The position numbers and the translations under genes are program-made. Shown here piece after piece: positions 1,437-24,680 of a stretch of 34,097 nt of DNA (position 1 is the first letter of the stretch; every line of letters begins with the position of its first letter). The DNA comes from Phycisphaerae bacterium. Its GTDB lineage: Bacteria > Planctomycetota > Phycisphaerae > SM23-33. Location of the stretch: the NCBI GenBank assembly GCA_011050235.1, contig DRGC01000092.1, forward strand, positions 1-34,097, written 5' to 3'. Below the pieces are notes generated by a model. The model was not told where the DNA came from, searched no databases, and worked only from the letters and a program-made list of their open reading frames with translations.

Positions 1437-3017
1437 TCAATCGGCCGGTGGGTCGGGTGTTGTTTCCGTCAGGGCCGGCAGGATCAGACGTTGCCAGATG
1501 TCAGGCTTGTTTCGGTCGAGCCCTCGGATGGCTCTGTTGGCTTCCAGGAAGTCCCGTTCGTCGCCGATGACCGTGGCTGTGAGTTGTTTGTCGACGGTCA
1601 CGATGCGGCGATACGTTCCTTCCTGGGCCAGGATGACGTAGGCGAGTTCATCGCTCATTGTCAGGTTGTCGCCGGGCTGGCTGACGACGACCAGACAAGG
1701 TCCGCTCTGAGCGCTCCTGAAAACCATCCAATTGATGGGCGGACTTGGACTGCCCTTGTAGGTGCGCCATGCCCCGCCGCCGCTCGAGCCGCGAATCGTC
1801 ACGGGAATCGGGGCCTGAGATGCCGTCAGGCTACGAGACAGCGCCCAGGCCATATCGGTCAACTCCGGCGGGGTCTGCGGTCGCTCCGCGACCTTCGCCA
1901 GGGCATCCGCGGCCGAGTCGGCGAAGAAGAACGTCTCGGCTGTCTTCATCGCGGCCAGACGACGCGTGGGCAGGGGGGCGTGCTCGTCGGTCAGGCGGGC
2001 GCGATGGGTCGCCATGGCGGCGTAATCCCAACAGACCACCAGCAGGATCACGACCGGCAGCATGACGAGCGCCCCGACGGCGTAACGCCTAAACAGCCGC
2101 GCCATGAGCAGGGCGGCCAGGATGACCAGTGGAAAGGCCAGTCCCATCCTGCCGATCAGCACGAAGGCGGGGGGGAGACCCCCGCCGTAGTCAAGGTCCA
2201 GCAGCGTCAGGCCCGACCAGGGGATCAGAGTGATCTCTCGGTCTGACGCACGATCCAGCAGCTCCGTCGCCGCCGCGGGCCGAAGCGGATCCTCCGCATC
2301 AACCAGGTGGATCCAGACCAATAGATAGGGGCCAATCTTCTCGCCGGCCGATGGTACAACCGACAGCAGCGACGACCACGATGTCTCCCGGGCGTAAGTG
2401 CCCATTCTTCGAACGTTGCCTTGGGAAAGCATCCCGCTGCCGGACTGGTACCCTCCGCGATGACTCTCCCATTTCAGGTCGTAGTTCCCCCTCAATACGG
2501 GCGCACCCGAACGTTCGCGGGTGTCGATCTCCACGTGGTTAATGCCAATGCTAAGCGTCCCACGGCAGGCGGGAGCGTTGATCTCCTTCTCGATCGACGG
2601 CGTCTTGGGCCAAGTGATCTCGAACTGCTCGACGTGCGTGATCTTGGGCGTGAGATTCGAGGCGTCGACGGTCATCACGTGAAAGAGCAGCCTGGCGCTT
2701 TGGGGCGTGTGTTCGCCGTTGGCCCATTCGGGGTGGGCGGCCACGATGTCCTCGAACGATTTCGTCGGCAGTTGAATCGTCGGCGTTTGGGCGTCGAAAG
2801 AGTCGTAGGCTGTGCGGATGTCCCACCAACTGGCAACGCTCAAGGTCGCCAGAATCACGACACCAACGCCGGCGGCGACAAAGCGGACGACCCTCCGTGT
2901 CTTCAGCCCGCGCGGAGATGGAGCTCGCACCACGGGCGGGCCCGATCGGCCCCTTGCGACCACAACGGCGGCGATAACCACCACGACCAGAAGAATCACT
3001 ACAGACACAGGCATCAT
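1437..3017 (-). CDS. Four-helix membrane protein of unknown family, downstream tandem paralog
   Basis: This 526-residue protein has helices at about 3-21, 43-64, 284-307 and 313-335. The loop between helices 1 and 2 is basic (RGLKTRRVVR), as is the turn between helices 3 and 4 (RLFRRY). By the positive-inside rule, the 66-283 domain and the C-terminal domain (336-526) should face outward. It is a close paralog of the gene directly upstream (3079-4659), with about nine in ten residues identical except in a block at 150-230 where only about half match. The start ATG at 3017 has AGGAG nine bases upstream, and the paralog's ribosome binding site is nearly identical, so the duplication included the leader. 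It is the last gene of the GntR-ABC operon. I recognise no family. The context suggests a membrane partner of the ABC module, perhaps a sensor or substrate-binding part; that role is inference. Confidence 0.8.
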   Translation of the reverse strand: MMPVSVVILLVVVVIAAVVVARGRSGPPVVRAPSPRGLKTRRVVRFVAAGVGVVILATLSVASWWDIRTAYDSFDAQTPTIQLPTKSFEDIVAAHPEWANGEHTPQSARLLFHVMTVDASNLTPKITHVEQFEITWPKTPSIEKEINAPACRGTLSIGINHVEIDTRERSGAPVLRGNYDLKWESHRGGYQSGSGMLSQGNVRRMGTYARETSWSSLLSVVPSAGEKIGPYLLVWIHLVDAEDPLRPAAATELLDRASDREITLIPWSGLTLLDLDYGGGLPPAFVLIGRMGLAFPLVILAALLMARLFRRYAVGALVMLPVVILLVVCWDYAAMATHRARLTDEHAPLPTRRLAAMKTAETFFFADSAADALAKVAERPQTPPELTDMAWALSRSLTASQAPIPVTIRGSSGGGAWRTYKGSPSPPINWMVFRSAQSGPCLVVVSQPGDNLTMSDELAYVILAQEGTYRRIVTVDKQLTATVIGDERDFLEANRAIRGLDRNKPDIWQRLILPALTETTPDPPAD

Positions 3018-3078: not shown

Positions 3079-4659
3079 CTAAAAATCGGCCGGTGGGTCG
3101 GGTGTTTTTTCGTTCAGGGCCGGCAGGACCAGGCGTTGCCAGATGTCAGGCTGGTCCCGGTGGTGCCCTCGGATGGTTCTTTCGGCTTCCAGGAAGTCCC
3201 GTTCGTCGCCGATGACCGTGGCTACGAGTCGCTTGTCGACGGTCACGATGCGGCGATACGTTCCTTCCTGGGCCAGGATGACGTAGGCGAGTTCATCGCT
3301 GATTGTCAGCCTATCCCCGGGCTGGCTGACGACGACCAGACAAGGTCCGCTCTGAGCGCTCCTGAAAACCGTCCAATTGATGGGCCGACTTGGACCGCCC
3401 TTGTAGCTGCGGAATGCCCCGCCGCCGCTCAAGCCGCGGATCGTCACCGGGATCGGGGCCTGAGATGCCGCCAGGCAACGAGACAGCGCCCAGGCCATAT
3501 CGGTCAACTCCGGCGGGGTCTGCGGTCGCTCCGCGACCTCCGCCAGCGCGCCCGCGGCCGAGTCGGCGAAGAAGAACGTCTCGGCCGTCTTCATCGCCGC
3601 CAGGCGACGCGTGGGCAGGGGGGCGTGCTCATCCGTCAGGCGGGCGCGATGGGTCGCCATGGCGGCGTAATCCCAACAGACCACCAGCAGCATCACCACC
3701 GGCAGCATGACCATCGCCCCGACGGCGTAACGCCTAAACAGCCGCGCCATGAGCAGGGCGGCCAGGATGACCAGCGGGAACGCCAGTCCCATCCTGCCGA
3801 TCAGCACGAAGGCGGGGGGGAGACCCCCGCCGTAGTCGAGCTCCAGCGGCGTCAGGCCCGACCAGGGAATCAGAGTGATGCTTTCGCTCTGCGCACGATC
3901 CAGCAACTCCGTCGCCGCCGCGGGCCGAAGCGGATCATCCGCATCAACCAGGTGGACCCAGACCAATAGATAGGGGTCTACCCTTTGGCGGGCCGAAGGC
4001 ACAACCGACAGCATCGACGACCACGATGTCGCCGGGTCGAAAATGCCTATCCTTTGGACGCCGCCTTGGGACAGCGGCCCGCCGGTGGAGCTGTATCCTC
4101 CGCCATTACGTTCCCATTCCATGTCGTACCCGCCCCTCAATGCGGGCGCATCCGGGAGATCATCCTGTATGTCAATCCACACGTGGTCAATGCCAATGCG
4201 GAGCGTCACACGGCAGCCAGGAGCGTTGATCTCCTTCTCGATCGACGGCGTCTTGGGCCAAGTGATGTCGAACTGCTCGGCGTGTGTGATTTGGGGCGTG
4301 AGCTTCGAGGGGTCGATGACCATCACGTGAAAGAGGAGCCTGGCGCTTTGGGGCGTGTGGGTGCCGTCGGCCCATTCGGGGTGGGCGGCCACGATATCCT
4401 CAAACGATTTCGTCGGTAGTTGAATGGTCGGCGTTTTGGCGTCGAAGGAATCGTAGGTTGTGCGGATGTCCCACCAGCTCGCGACACTCAAGGCCGCCAG
4501 GATCGCCACACCAACGCCGGCGGCGACGAGGCGGACGACCTTCCGTGTCTTCAGTCCGCGCGGAGATGGAGCTCGCGCCACGGGTGGGCCCGATCGGCTC
4601 TTTGCGACGACAACGGCGGCGATAACCACCACGACCAGAAGAACCGCTGTGTAACCCAT
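3079..4659 (-). CDS. Four-helix membrane protein of unknown family, upstream tandem paralog
   Basis: The protein is 526 residues and shares length, topology and most of its sequence with the copy at 1437-3017. Helices lie at about 2-19, 41-62, 282-305 and 311-333. The predicted outward domain contains conserved phrases shared by both copies, such as IQLPTKSFEDIVAAHPEW and the TSWSS..LSVVPSA segment. Only 61 bp separate it from the downstream copy and 27 bp from the membrane protein upstream, so all are probably co-transcribed. AGGAG lies nine bases before the ATG at 4659. The region of residues 150-230 differs strongly from the other copy and carries a one-residue length change, while both sides are nearly identical. 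No known domain is recognised. The protein has no Walker motifs, so it is not itself an ATPase. Confidence 0.8.
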   Translation of the reverse strand: MGYTAVLLVVVVIAAVVVAKSRSGPPVARAPSPRGLKTRKVVRLVAAGVGVAILAALSVASWWDIRTTYDSFDAKTPTIQLPTKSFEDIVAAHPEWADGTHTPQSARLLFHVMVIDPSKLTPQITHAEQFDITWPKTPSIEKEINAPGCRVTLRIGIDHVWIDIQDDLPDAPALRGGYDMEWERNGGGYSSTGGPLSQGGVQRIGIFDPATSWSSMLSVVPSARQRVDPYLLVWVHLVDADDPLRPAAATELLDRAQSESITLIPWSGLTPLELDYGGGLPPAFVLIGRMGLAFPLVILAALLMARLFRRYAVGAMVMLPVVMLLVVCWDYAAMATHRARLTDEHAPLPTRRLAAMKTAETFFFADSAAGALAEVAERPQTPPELTDMAWALSRCLAASQAPIPVTIRGLSGGGAFRSYKGGPSRPINWTVFRSAQSGPCLVVVSQPGDRLTISDELAYVILAQEGTYRRIVTVDKRLVATVIGDERDFLEAERTIRGHHRDQPDIWQRLVLPALNEKTPDPPADF

Positions 4660-6974: not shown

Positions 6975-7012
6975 GGGCGCATCGAAGTTTTTTTTCGCCT
7001 CGCCGATGGGGA

Positions 7013-7142
7013 CGACAGGGATTTGGGCCGTCGCTGCGCGACGGCTTGGCAGTTGGGGCATGGCCCAACTGCATTCCACTCAGGACGGATCCAAATACAA
7101 GACAGGCCAGCCCTTTTGGGCCGGCCTATCTTGTATCGGGGC
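7013..7142 (-). repeat. Structured 130-bp repeat, copy A
   Basis: This segment is about 80 percent identical by eye to 8516-8642 and in the same orientation. It contains three consecutive hairpins: 7027-7045 (8-bp stem), 7049-7072 (9-bp stem) and 7096-7135 (a long imperfect stem with outer arms TACAAGA/TCTTGTA). Hairpins 2 and 3 are joined by the conserved stretch 7073-7096, which includes GGATCCAAAT. The segment ends with TCGGGGC at 7136-7142, which equals the discriminator base and six acceptor bases of tRNA-Pro in the other copy; no tRNA follows here. The -35 box of the GntR operon lies 38 bp away. Confidence 0.8.
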
Positions 7143-7148
7143 AACTGT

Positions 7149-7284: not shown

Positions 7285-8214
7285 CTAATGTCGTTGCTCG
7301 TAGTGTGCCGCTCTGGCCTTCTGGAAGAACTCCTCGTCTTGGTCATATTGGCTGATCACCCAGGAGACATACTCCCGTGAGTATTGGGGAGAAGAATACT
7401 TCGGACAATGGCAGAGATTTTCTTTGTCCCGAACATCGCAAATACGATTGATGCACTGGATATCGTAGGAATTGATCGTGGTTCTTCCTGCTAAGCCCCT
7501 GTTGATCTCCCCAATTGCTTCCTTCTGGCGAAACGGGTGCGTAAGATCGTAATCGAGCCTGCGATATGCTGGGGCGTCTGGATCGTCCACGATCCGGATG
7601 GCCCGAGCATCTGTAGATACTGACTCGCGTACATCGACCCCTGAAGGAAAAGTATAGATTTGGCTGCCTGGCGGAGCTTTGACCACCTTACGTAGCCCTT
7701 GCAACCATGACTTCCTGATCAATTCAAGCTGTCTTTCAACGACCCTCCGAAGGTCGTTGGTATTTCCAGGTTCGCTCTTTGCACCGTGTCGGAAGTAGAC
7801 GGTCCCCGCGGAGAAAGCCGTCTTCTGCTTCTTGTCGCTAACCGCATAGGTCCCAGGCTTAGTGAACACGATCGGAATAGAGACGGCTTCAACAAGAATC
7901 GCCACAAGGCGATTGCCTGCTTTTGTCTCCTCCGAGATGGTGAAAGAATCGAACTGCACGCCGGTGTATTTGTGGATGCGGTCAGTCACGACGGCTTCGT
8001 CGACATCCAGAACCGATGTCGGGTCCCACCGTGTCGGTTTGCCCTTATTGTCCAGCCCAATGAGAAGAACGCCGCCCCCGGAGTTCGCCATTGCGACCAT
8101 GTCTTTCACGATCTCGCACCATGCGTGGGGCTCCGAAAGATCCAGCTCGCCCTTGAAGTCGACGTATTTCGACTCACGCTTGGCGGCAAGTGCTCGCTGG
8201 ATATGGTCTTTCAT
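7285..8214 (-). CDS. Schlafen/AlbA_2-type putative DNA- or ATP-binding protein
   Basis: This 309-residue protein carries an N-terminal AlbA_2 (Schlafen-like) domain at about 12-150. Visible hallmarks are ESKYVDFKGE (14-23) and MANSGGGVLLIGLDNKG (42-58), followed by a strand rich in hydrophobic residues and the YFRHGAKSEPG segment. AlbA_2 domains occur in transcriptional regulators, in Schlafen nucleases and in several defence-associated proteins. A second conserved-looking region spans about 235-305, with two Cys in LCHCPK and aromatic residues in YVSWVISQYDQDEEFFQKAR; I cannot name it. The gene is visibly more AT-rich than its neighbours and is flanked by two copies of a structured repeat, one at a tRNA 3' end. 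Both features suggest acquisition by transfer. No good Shine-Dalgarno precedes the ATG at 8214. Confidence 0.75.
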   Translation of the reverse strand: MKDHIQRALAAKRESKYVDFKGELDLSEPHAWCEIVKDMVAMANSGGGVLLIGLDNKGKPTRWDPTSVLDVDEAVVTDRIHKYTGVQFDSFTISEETKAGNRLVAILVEAVSIPIVFTKPGTYAVSDKKQKTAFSAGTVYFRHGAKSEPGNTNDLRRVVERQLELIRKSWLQGLRKVVKAPPGSQIYTFPSGVDVRESVSTDARAIRIVDDPDAPAYRRLDYDLTHPFRQKEAIGEINRGLAGRTTINSYDIQCINRICDVRDKENLCHCPKYSSPQYSREYVSWVISQYDQDEEFFQKARAAHYEQRH

Positions 8215-8515
8215 CTTTGAGGCCAGTAGTTTGATTGAACGGAACTGTCCTGGTGAGCGGGGGAGATTGCCATGCTGAACAGAAAGCCAGATCGCTCTCG
8301 GAAACCCCGAAACCGTCTACACCGGATACGATTTTCGTCAGGATGCACATGACTTGCAAGCTGTTTTCGCCCGATGCCCCGGGAAGTGTTGCGCGATCGC
8401 AACCCGCTGGGGGTTGCATTGGTTCAAACTCGGGAGGCGACTGGCCAAGCCTTGAACGACCCGTAAATGCAGGAACCCGAAGGGGCCTGCTGGCTTCCTA
8501 CCTGTCACATCGGGT
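8215..8515. other. Intergenic stretch without a recognisable gene
   Basis: No convincing coding sequence was found on either strand between the AlbA_2 gene and repeat copy B. A short inverted repeat GCAACCC/GGGTTGC lies near 8399-8417. Several frames are open, but none shows protein-like composition, a start signal and a recognisable motif together. Confidence 0.5.
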
Positions 8516-8642
8516 CGACAGGGATTTGGGCCGTTGCGTTGCGACGGCTGAGCAGTTGGGCCTGTGGCCCAACTGCATTCCACTCAAGACGGATCCAAAT
8601 GCAAGAAGGGCCACCCAAGGGCGGCCCTTCTTACATCGGGGC
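8516..8642 (-). repeat. Structured 130-bp repeat, copy B, abutting tRNA-Pro
   Basis: This copy pairs with 7013-7142. Its hairpins are 8530-8548, 8552-8576 (11-bp stem) and 8601-8634 (arms AAGAAGGGCC/GGCCCTTCTT around a second CCC/GGG stem). Stem sequences differ between the copies while pairing is kept; for example the third hairpin has different arms but stays complementary. The third hairpin starts directly after the tRNA-Pro 3' end on the minus strand and could end tRNA transcription. The copy overlaps the last seven bases of the tRNA gene. Confidence 0.8.
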
Positions 8643-8710
8643 GACAGGATTTGAACCTGCGACCTCTTGACCCCCAGTCAAGCGCGCTAGCCAAACTGCG
8701 CCACGCCCCG
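8636..8710 (-). tRNA. tRNA-Pro (anticodon GGG)
   Basis: The 75-nt minus-strand sequence folds into a full cloverleaf. The acceptor arms are CGGGGCG and CGCCCCG with discriminator A, the D-arm is GCGC/GCGC, and the anticodon stem CTTGA/TCAAG holds the loop CTGGGGG, giving anticodon GGG. The T-arm is GCAGG/CCTGT around TTCAAAT. The CCA end is not encoded. The gene sits just downstream of the DHS-like gene and is followed at once by the structured repeat. Confidence 0.95.
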
Positions 8711-8757: not shown

Positions 8758-8785
8758 ATTATACGCGATCGGCGGCGGCCGGCAA
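8758..8785 (-). promoter_or_regulatory. Promoter of tRNA-Pro
   Basis: The minus strand shows TTGCCG (8785-8780), a 16-bp spacer and a perfect TATAAT (8763-8758). A leader of about 40 nt with a 7-bp inverted repeat (TTCGTGC/GCACGAA) precedes the mature tRNA. The promoter begins three bases past the stop of the upstream gene. Confidence 0.75.
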
Positions 8786-24560: not shown

Positions 24561-24680
24561 GAAAAAGGGGACAGGCTACTTTTTGTGCCTTTGATCCGGC
24601 TCAACCTTCTGTTGCACGAGTAGCGCTTCGCATGCGATTCGCCTGCCACCAGGAACAAAAAGTAGCCTGTCCCCTTTTTC
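24561..24680. repeat. REP-like inverted repeat pair
   Basis: Two perfect 26-bp arms, 24561-24586 and 24655-24680, are inverted copies around a 68-bp centre. Each arm contains GGGGACAGGCTACTTTTT or its complement. Arms of this type, with the GGGGACAGG core, are widespread in bacterial genomes as REP/BIME-like elements and are thought to be moved by REP-associated Y1 transposases. The centre contains the palindrome CGCATGCG. No transposase gene lies in the window. Confidence 0.85.

Follow-up and report, generated by a model that had tools for sequence, protein, structure and literature searches.

The three-hairpin repeat found twice behind a tRNA-Pro(GGG) gene of this Phycisphaerae bacterium is best explained, with a probability of roughly 0.55, as the terminator of the tRNA gene joined to the scar of an insertion that duplicated the tRNA tail, the whole being repeated in tandem. 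Read in the sense of the tRNA, the repeat would be a 3'-flanking module of tRNA-Pro genes, in which a first hairpin (H1), beginning on the last tRNA bases, would end or trim the tRNA transcript. An insertion at the 3' end of the tRNA would leave a linker, two further hairpins (H2 and H3) and a second copy of the same tRNA's 3' end, the insert bringing a tRNA tail and a terminator while the original tail is pushed outward. At tRNA-Pro(GGG), at least two such insertions would have taken place in tandem, with an acquired SLFN_AlbA_2 gene caught between them. The locus would thus offer a concrete case of a tRNA flank rebuilt repeatedly, with tail and stop hairpin restored each time. If true, this accounts for the fast sequence turnover behind tRNA genes and provides small, testable units for studying how tRNA-targeting elements avoid host harm; it is also a reminder that hairpins which covary behind a tRNA are not necessarily a new regulatory RNA.

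The repeat and its locus

The window, i.e., the whole stretch of DNA analysed, is contig C92 with its 34,097 bases, part of a draft genome of 4.0 Mb in 98 contigs that is ~95% complete. Downstream of tRNA-Pro(GGG), the two copies of the repeat flank the SLFN_AlbA_2 gene, all on the minus strand. Within the window, the direct repeats are 7006-7112 and 8509-8616; the three-hairpin copies cover 7137-7006 (copy 1) and 8637-8509 (copy 2), and the whole element, from the tRNA end to the copy of the tRNA tail, covers 7145-7006 and 8637-8509, respectively. Upstream of the tRNA lies a putative sigma-70-like promoter (TTGCCG-16-TATAAT, 8758-8785), taken from a consensus scan that gave 2 matches in 2 kb vs 0.8 expected. 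The tRNA-Pro(GGG) gene itself (8636-8710; ARAGORN; Rfam RF00005, 63.9 bits) does not encode CCA. In copy 2, the H1 hairpin of ~18 bp (8598-8637), a probable terminator, is followed by the aligned linker TGGATCCGTCTTGAGTGGAAT (8577-8597), an H2 of 11 bp with a triloop (8552-8576), an H3 of 8 bp with one C-A mismatch (8530-8548) and a distal copy of the tRNA-Pro(GGG) 3' end (8509-8527), which reads AAATCCCTGTCGACCCGAT vs AAATCC-TGTCGCCCCGAT in the tRNA. This tail is separated from copy 1 by ~1.36 kb containing the SLFN_AlbA_2 gene (7285-8214, identified by domain search). Copy 1 is preceded by a sequence resembling the tRNA-Pro 3' end (7135-7145, GTTGCCCCGAT vs GTCGCCCCGAT) and consists of H1 (~20 bp, 7094-7137), the aligned linker TGGATCCGTCCTGAGTGGAAT (7073-7093), H2 (9 bp, 7049-7072), H3 (8 bp, 7027-7045) and a more decayed distal copy of the tRNA 3' end, AAATCCCTGTCGTCCCCAT (7006-7024).

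The first-pass annotation had confined the element to 7027-7135, which is too short for a unit that spans from the tRNA end to the tail copy, and it had ordered the hairpins along the plus strand, so that its "third" hairpin is the one nearest to the tRNA when read on the minus strand. The strand, the distal copy of the tRNA 3' end and the insertion-hotspot context had gone unnoticed. Two other repeats were seen elsewhere in the window, namely a 1.64-kb tandem gene duplication with blocks 83-92% identical, forming adjacent 526-aa frames on the minus strand (1437-3017 and 3079-4659), and a 30-nt inverted repeat that is 97% complementary with its arms 60 nt apart (24561-24680, GAAAAAGGGGACAGGCTACTTTTTGTGCCT).

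Pairing, strand and the role of the first hairpin

The two window copies fold into three successive hairpins whichever strand is folded, as the first-pass annotation had described. Compared with shuffled sequences, the minus strand is the more stable, with a folding z of -7.6 and -7.3, while on the plus strand both copies reach -5.8; none of 200 shuffles folds as well on either strand. Three details reported earlier were also borne out between copies 1 and 2: H2 lengthens from 9 to 11 bp, the linker is almost unchanged (20/21 identical), and H1 keeps its pairing under a changed sequence, 11 of its 39 aligned positions being different. A covariance-model search, for which the first-pass annotation had named the lack of further copies as a refuting outcome, found one on contig C29 and one on contig C90, both with the pairing kept, so that the proposal withstood its own check. 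In the alignment of all four copies, 140 of 143 cells at 38 pairs are paired (97.9%), falling to 32-47% when the partner is slid by 1-3 columns, and two-sided changes occur at 11 pairs, which is matched by none of 500 shuffles; these statistics rest on four sequences in which several H1 changes are shared among copies and hence are not independent events. Part of the apparent compensation may moreover be the exchange of whole hairpins, because the copies are mosaic: the C90 copy and copy 2 are identical at 36/39 positions in H1 and at only 13/21 in the linker, but copies 1 and 2, with their nearly identical linkers, agree at 28/39 positions in H1. A pairing of the tail copy with the linker was also considered; judged by eye, the four copies do not preserve it.

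The polarity of the non-Watson-Crick cells, with 10 G-U against 1 A-C in the tRNA sense, argues that the structure, if it matters, would do so as RNA of the minus strand, i.e., in the sense of tRNA-Pro. The earlier proposal of selection on an RNA or single-stranded DNA structure is thus favoured in its RNA half, and mobility as single-stranded DNA of the REP type is disfavoured.

In both copies linked to a tRNA, H1 abuts the gene as a GC-rich hairpin directly on its 3' side, with the stem beginning on the last tRNA bases. It is best read as a tRNA terminator or trailer hairpin because comparable hairpins, with a stem of at least 10 bp starting at most 14 nt from the tRNA end, follow 19 of 47 tRNAs in the same genome (control, 4/46) and 22 of 29 tRNA-Pro genes in relatives (control, 2/28), the controls being stretches 180-200 nt further on. 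Within 50 nt downstream of the genome's own tRNAs, the sense fold is the more stable one in 32 cases vs 14 (p = 0.011), and this strand bias is gone further downstream. Many of the relatives' hairpins have A-tract/U-tract arms as in intrinsic terminators of the bidirectional type, with UUUUUU after the stem in several of them. H1 thus resembles the intrinsic terminators of tRNA genes in being a strong hairpin directly after the tRNA, in its A/U-rich outer arms and in its sense polarity; it differs in that the stem begins within the tRNA and in the weak U-tract of the own copies (UUCUUGCAUU / UGUCUUGUAUUU), which were not called by a terminator scan. Terminators keep their pairing while their sequence changes. 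On this comparative evidence, it is quite probable that H1 terminates or trims the tRNA-Pro transcript. The first-pass suggestion of an undescribed tRNA-linked terminator or processing element therefore needs dividing: a structured RNA that is linked to the tRNA and includes a terminator-like element seems well founded, but the terminator part is already known in kind, hairpins directly 3' of tRNAs being common in this genome and its family.

Distribution of the repeat and copies of the tRNA tail

Four copies of the repeat are present in the genome: two in the window, one directly behind tRNA-Pro(CGG) on C29, a contig that stops ~100 bp beyond the element, and one on C90 without a tRNA, which retains TCGCCCCGATG at the end of H1. 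The repeat was not found in 396 other genomes of the class, with no second genome of its genus among those searched. A covariance model reduced to linker, H2 and H3 recovers the same four copies and no more in the own 4.0-Mb genome, and has no match in the 396 others; these three parts are confined to this genome, and other sequences fill their place in the genomes of the family. A DNA search of 60 genomes likewise gave matches in the own genome only, and the exact linker pattern had no match in viral contigs and a single one in 84,980 genomes, on a Bryobacteraceae contig without matching structure there. Weak matches of the first covariance model in the family (24-33 bits) were discarded, as they mainly reflect an H1-like hairpin, often right behind tRNA-Pro.

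The main rival for H2 and H3 is a functional regulator in which H1-H2-H3 would be a small RNA processed from the tRNA-Pro transcript, as rtT RNA is in the tyrT operon of E. coli. In that operon, ~19 nt of the tRNA 3' end are duplicated in each repeat, and the layout of non-coding repeat units behind a tRNA is the same; the tRNA-sense polarity, the folding z of about -7.5 and the pairing kept in H2 and H3 too would suit such an RNA. RtT RNAs are indeed released from tRNA operon transcripts (PMC4986893). The units described here, however, are ~130 nt long with three hairpins, at tRNA-Pro and with one orphan, and the Rfam RtT covariance model found no match in them (cmscan, E up to 5). With the linker, H2 and H3 lacking in the 396 other genomes of the class and two of the four copies not adjoining any tRNA, we consider this explanation doubtful.

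The linker, H2 and H3 are tied to the tRNA by the last 19 nt of the repeat, which duplicate the 3' end of the adjoining tRNA. The tail of copy 2 equals the 3' end of tRNA-Pro(GGG) with one inserted base (C) and one mismatch, and that of the C29 copy the 3' end of tRNA-Pro(CGG) with one inserted base. With a 25-nt query, the match of copy 2 (score 13.0) was equalled by none of 4000 resampled sequences, and the same holds for the C29 tail; with a 40-nt query, 4/4000 were as high as the match of copy 2. Distal tail copies also occur behind tRNA-Pro in the relatives L106, L107, L119, L103, L091 and L111, and less exactly in L094. In a 9 x 9 comparison, the own tRNA gives the best match in 7 rows (ties included); L087 misses by a single base, a near-identical tRNA scoring higher, and only L094 departs from the pattern, its tail resembling the family's commoner tRNA-Pro. 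In the own genome, tRNA-Asn, tRNA-Val, tRNA-Gly(TCC) and tRNA-Gly(CCC) have tail copies as well.

It is difficult to reconcile these tails with a simple duplication of the segment 3' of tRNA-Pro, in which slippage or unequal recombination would have acted without a mobile element and the hairpins would be kept as H1 is a terminator. The low number of copies, their tandem position at tRNA-Pro and their partial mosaicism speak for it, but the layout recurs behind another tRNA-Pro, there with the tail of that tRNA, one copy (C90) lies at a site unrelated to these, and tail copies of a similar kind stand behind other tRNAs in this genome and in relatives, which makes this explanation improbable. 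The first-pass annotation had also offered a REP-type element. Such a palindromic element, REP- or MITE-like and mobilised in single-stranded form by a Y1 transposase, is very improbable: the hairpins are short extragenic palindromes, one copy is an orphan and Y1_Tnp genes are present in the genome (five clear ones, plus a sixth that matches weakly), but there are only four copies of a tRNA-linked multi-hairpin unit in 4.0 Mb where REP/REPIN elements (PMC8266576) number tens to hundreds per genome, no GTAG stands 5' of the palindromes H2 or H3, and the G-U polarity points to RNA. Integron attC sites were likewise rejected on inspection, the GTTGGGC/GCCCAAC boxes lying in one palindrome in the wrong order, with no cassette array seen.

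Insertion at the tRNA end

That the whole unit arose when an insertion at the 3' end of the tRNA restored the tail, an event that would have happened twice in tandem here, is probable, since a displaced copy of the cognate tail marks insertion into tRNA genes. Islander recognises islands in tRNA genes by an intact tRNA gene and a displaced cognate 3' fragment downstream (PMC4383910). Both are present here in the same orientation, together with a tandem arrangement and a cargo gene of patchy distribution. The intervals, however, are 0.13 and ~1.4 kb vs the Islander filter of >2 kb, and the stretches from the tRNA to the two displaced tails contain neither an integrase nor another mobility gene. 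The window units fall outside the formal definition of an island because there is no integrase within them, and they could represent scars, non-autonomous units or simple duplications, H2 and H3 being possibly passengers or part of the inserting unit. The shortest unit, at only ~130 bp and without a mobility gene, and the imperfect tail copies count against the insertion.

In the family, tRNA-Pro(GGG) serves as an integration site: a tyrosine integrase starts right behind it in G008, and in G034 a GIY-YIG gene is accompanied there by an exact tail copy of 31 nt and by the C-terminus of an integrase. Between 7006 and 8636, the SLFN_AlbA_2 gene is the only convincing gene, based on the list of open reading frames and a domain search of that frame. 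It has no homologue in 34 family genomes and, with a C-terminus similar to PDC-S19 / EC042_2821 REase-like proteins, resembles candidate defence proteins, as cargo often does.

The layout seen here, made up of tRNA-Pro, H1, structured stretch, cognate tail and second hairpin, recurs in L106, L107 and L119, with an intervening stretch of different sequence whose four-way-junction fold partly uses an inverted tail copy. Such a four-way-junction element, with inverted and direct copies of the tRNA 3' end behind tRNA-Pro, is seen in L094, L106, L107 and L119; it spans genera and occurs twice in tandem in L119. The L094 form has relatives at 83-95% identity in three other genera, where each genome has one or two pieces; one of these copies has no tRNA nearby. 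One joint alignment of the relatives' elements was poor. A broader and still speculative idea, unlikely as it stands, is that the 3' ends of tRNAs are the targets of a class of structured mobile units of ultra-short length (~130-180 nt), each with a new tail and a terminator hairpin of its own, the three-hairpin repeat and the four-way-junction elements being two sequence-unrelated versions.

Several other genes were observed at tRNA ends. All of the single-domain GIY-YIG genes detected in the genome, four in number, namely L142 (C11:8081), L143/L145 (C25:8383), L141 (C11:25305) and L140 (C62:59013), follow a tRNA gene (Asn, Val, Ala) or the tmRNA gene on the same strand, either immediately or at a distance of a few hundred nt, and look like selfish genes associated with tRNA and tmRNA ends; the exception is a long GIY-YIG frame on C63 (466 aa, possibly UvrC) that is not behind a tRNA. 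Literature searches on rtT/tyrT, and on GIY-YIG or IVP genes downstream of tRNAs, gave no account of the arrangement seen in this genome. In L070 and L083, the pair with GIY-YIG frames behind tRNA-Asn/tRNA-Val, a partial second tRNA with a ~20-nt palindrome inserted in its T-loop lies behind the frame, at +270 to +355 and at +255 to +330 after the tRNA, respectively; what seems to be a second, decayed copy of GIY-YIG comes next in L083. Behind the tRNA-Pro of G019 (L107), a 23S_rRNA_IVP (S23, four-helix) protein frame is found a few hundred bases downstream, with a similar start in L103. Finally, the contig ends L027:1-20 and L028:2907-2925 carry an apparent Nextera transposon mosaic end (AGATGTGTATAAGAGACAG), an adapter left untrimmed in the assembly.
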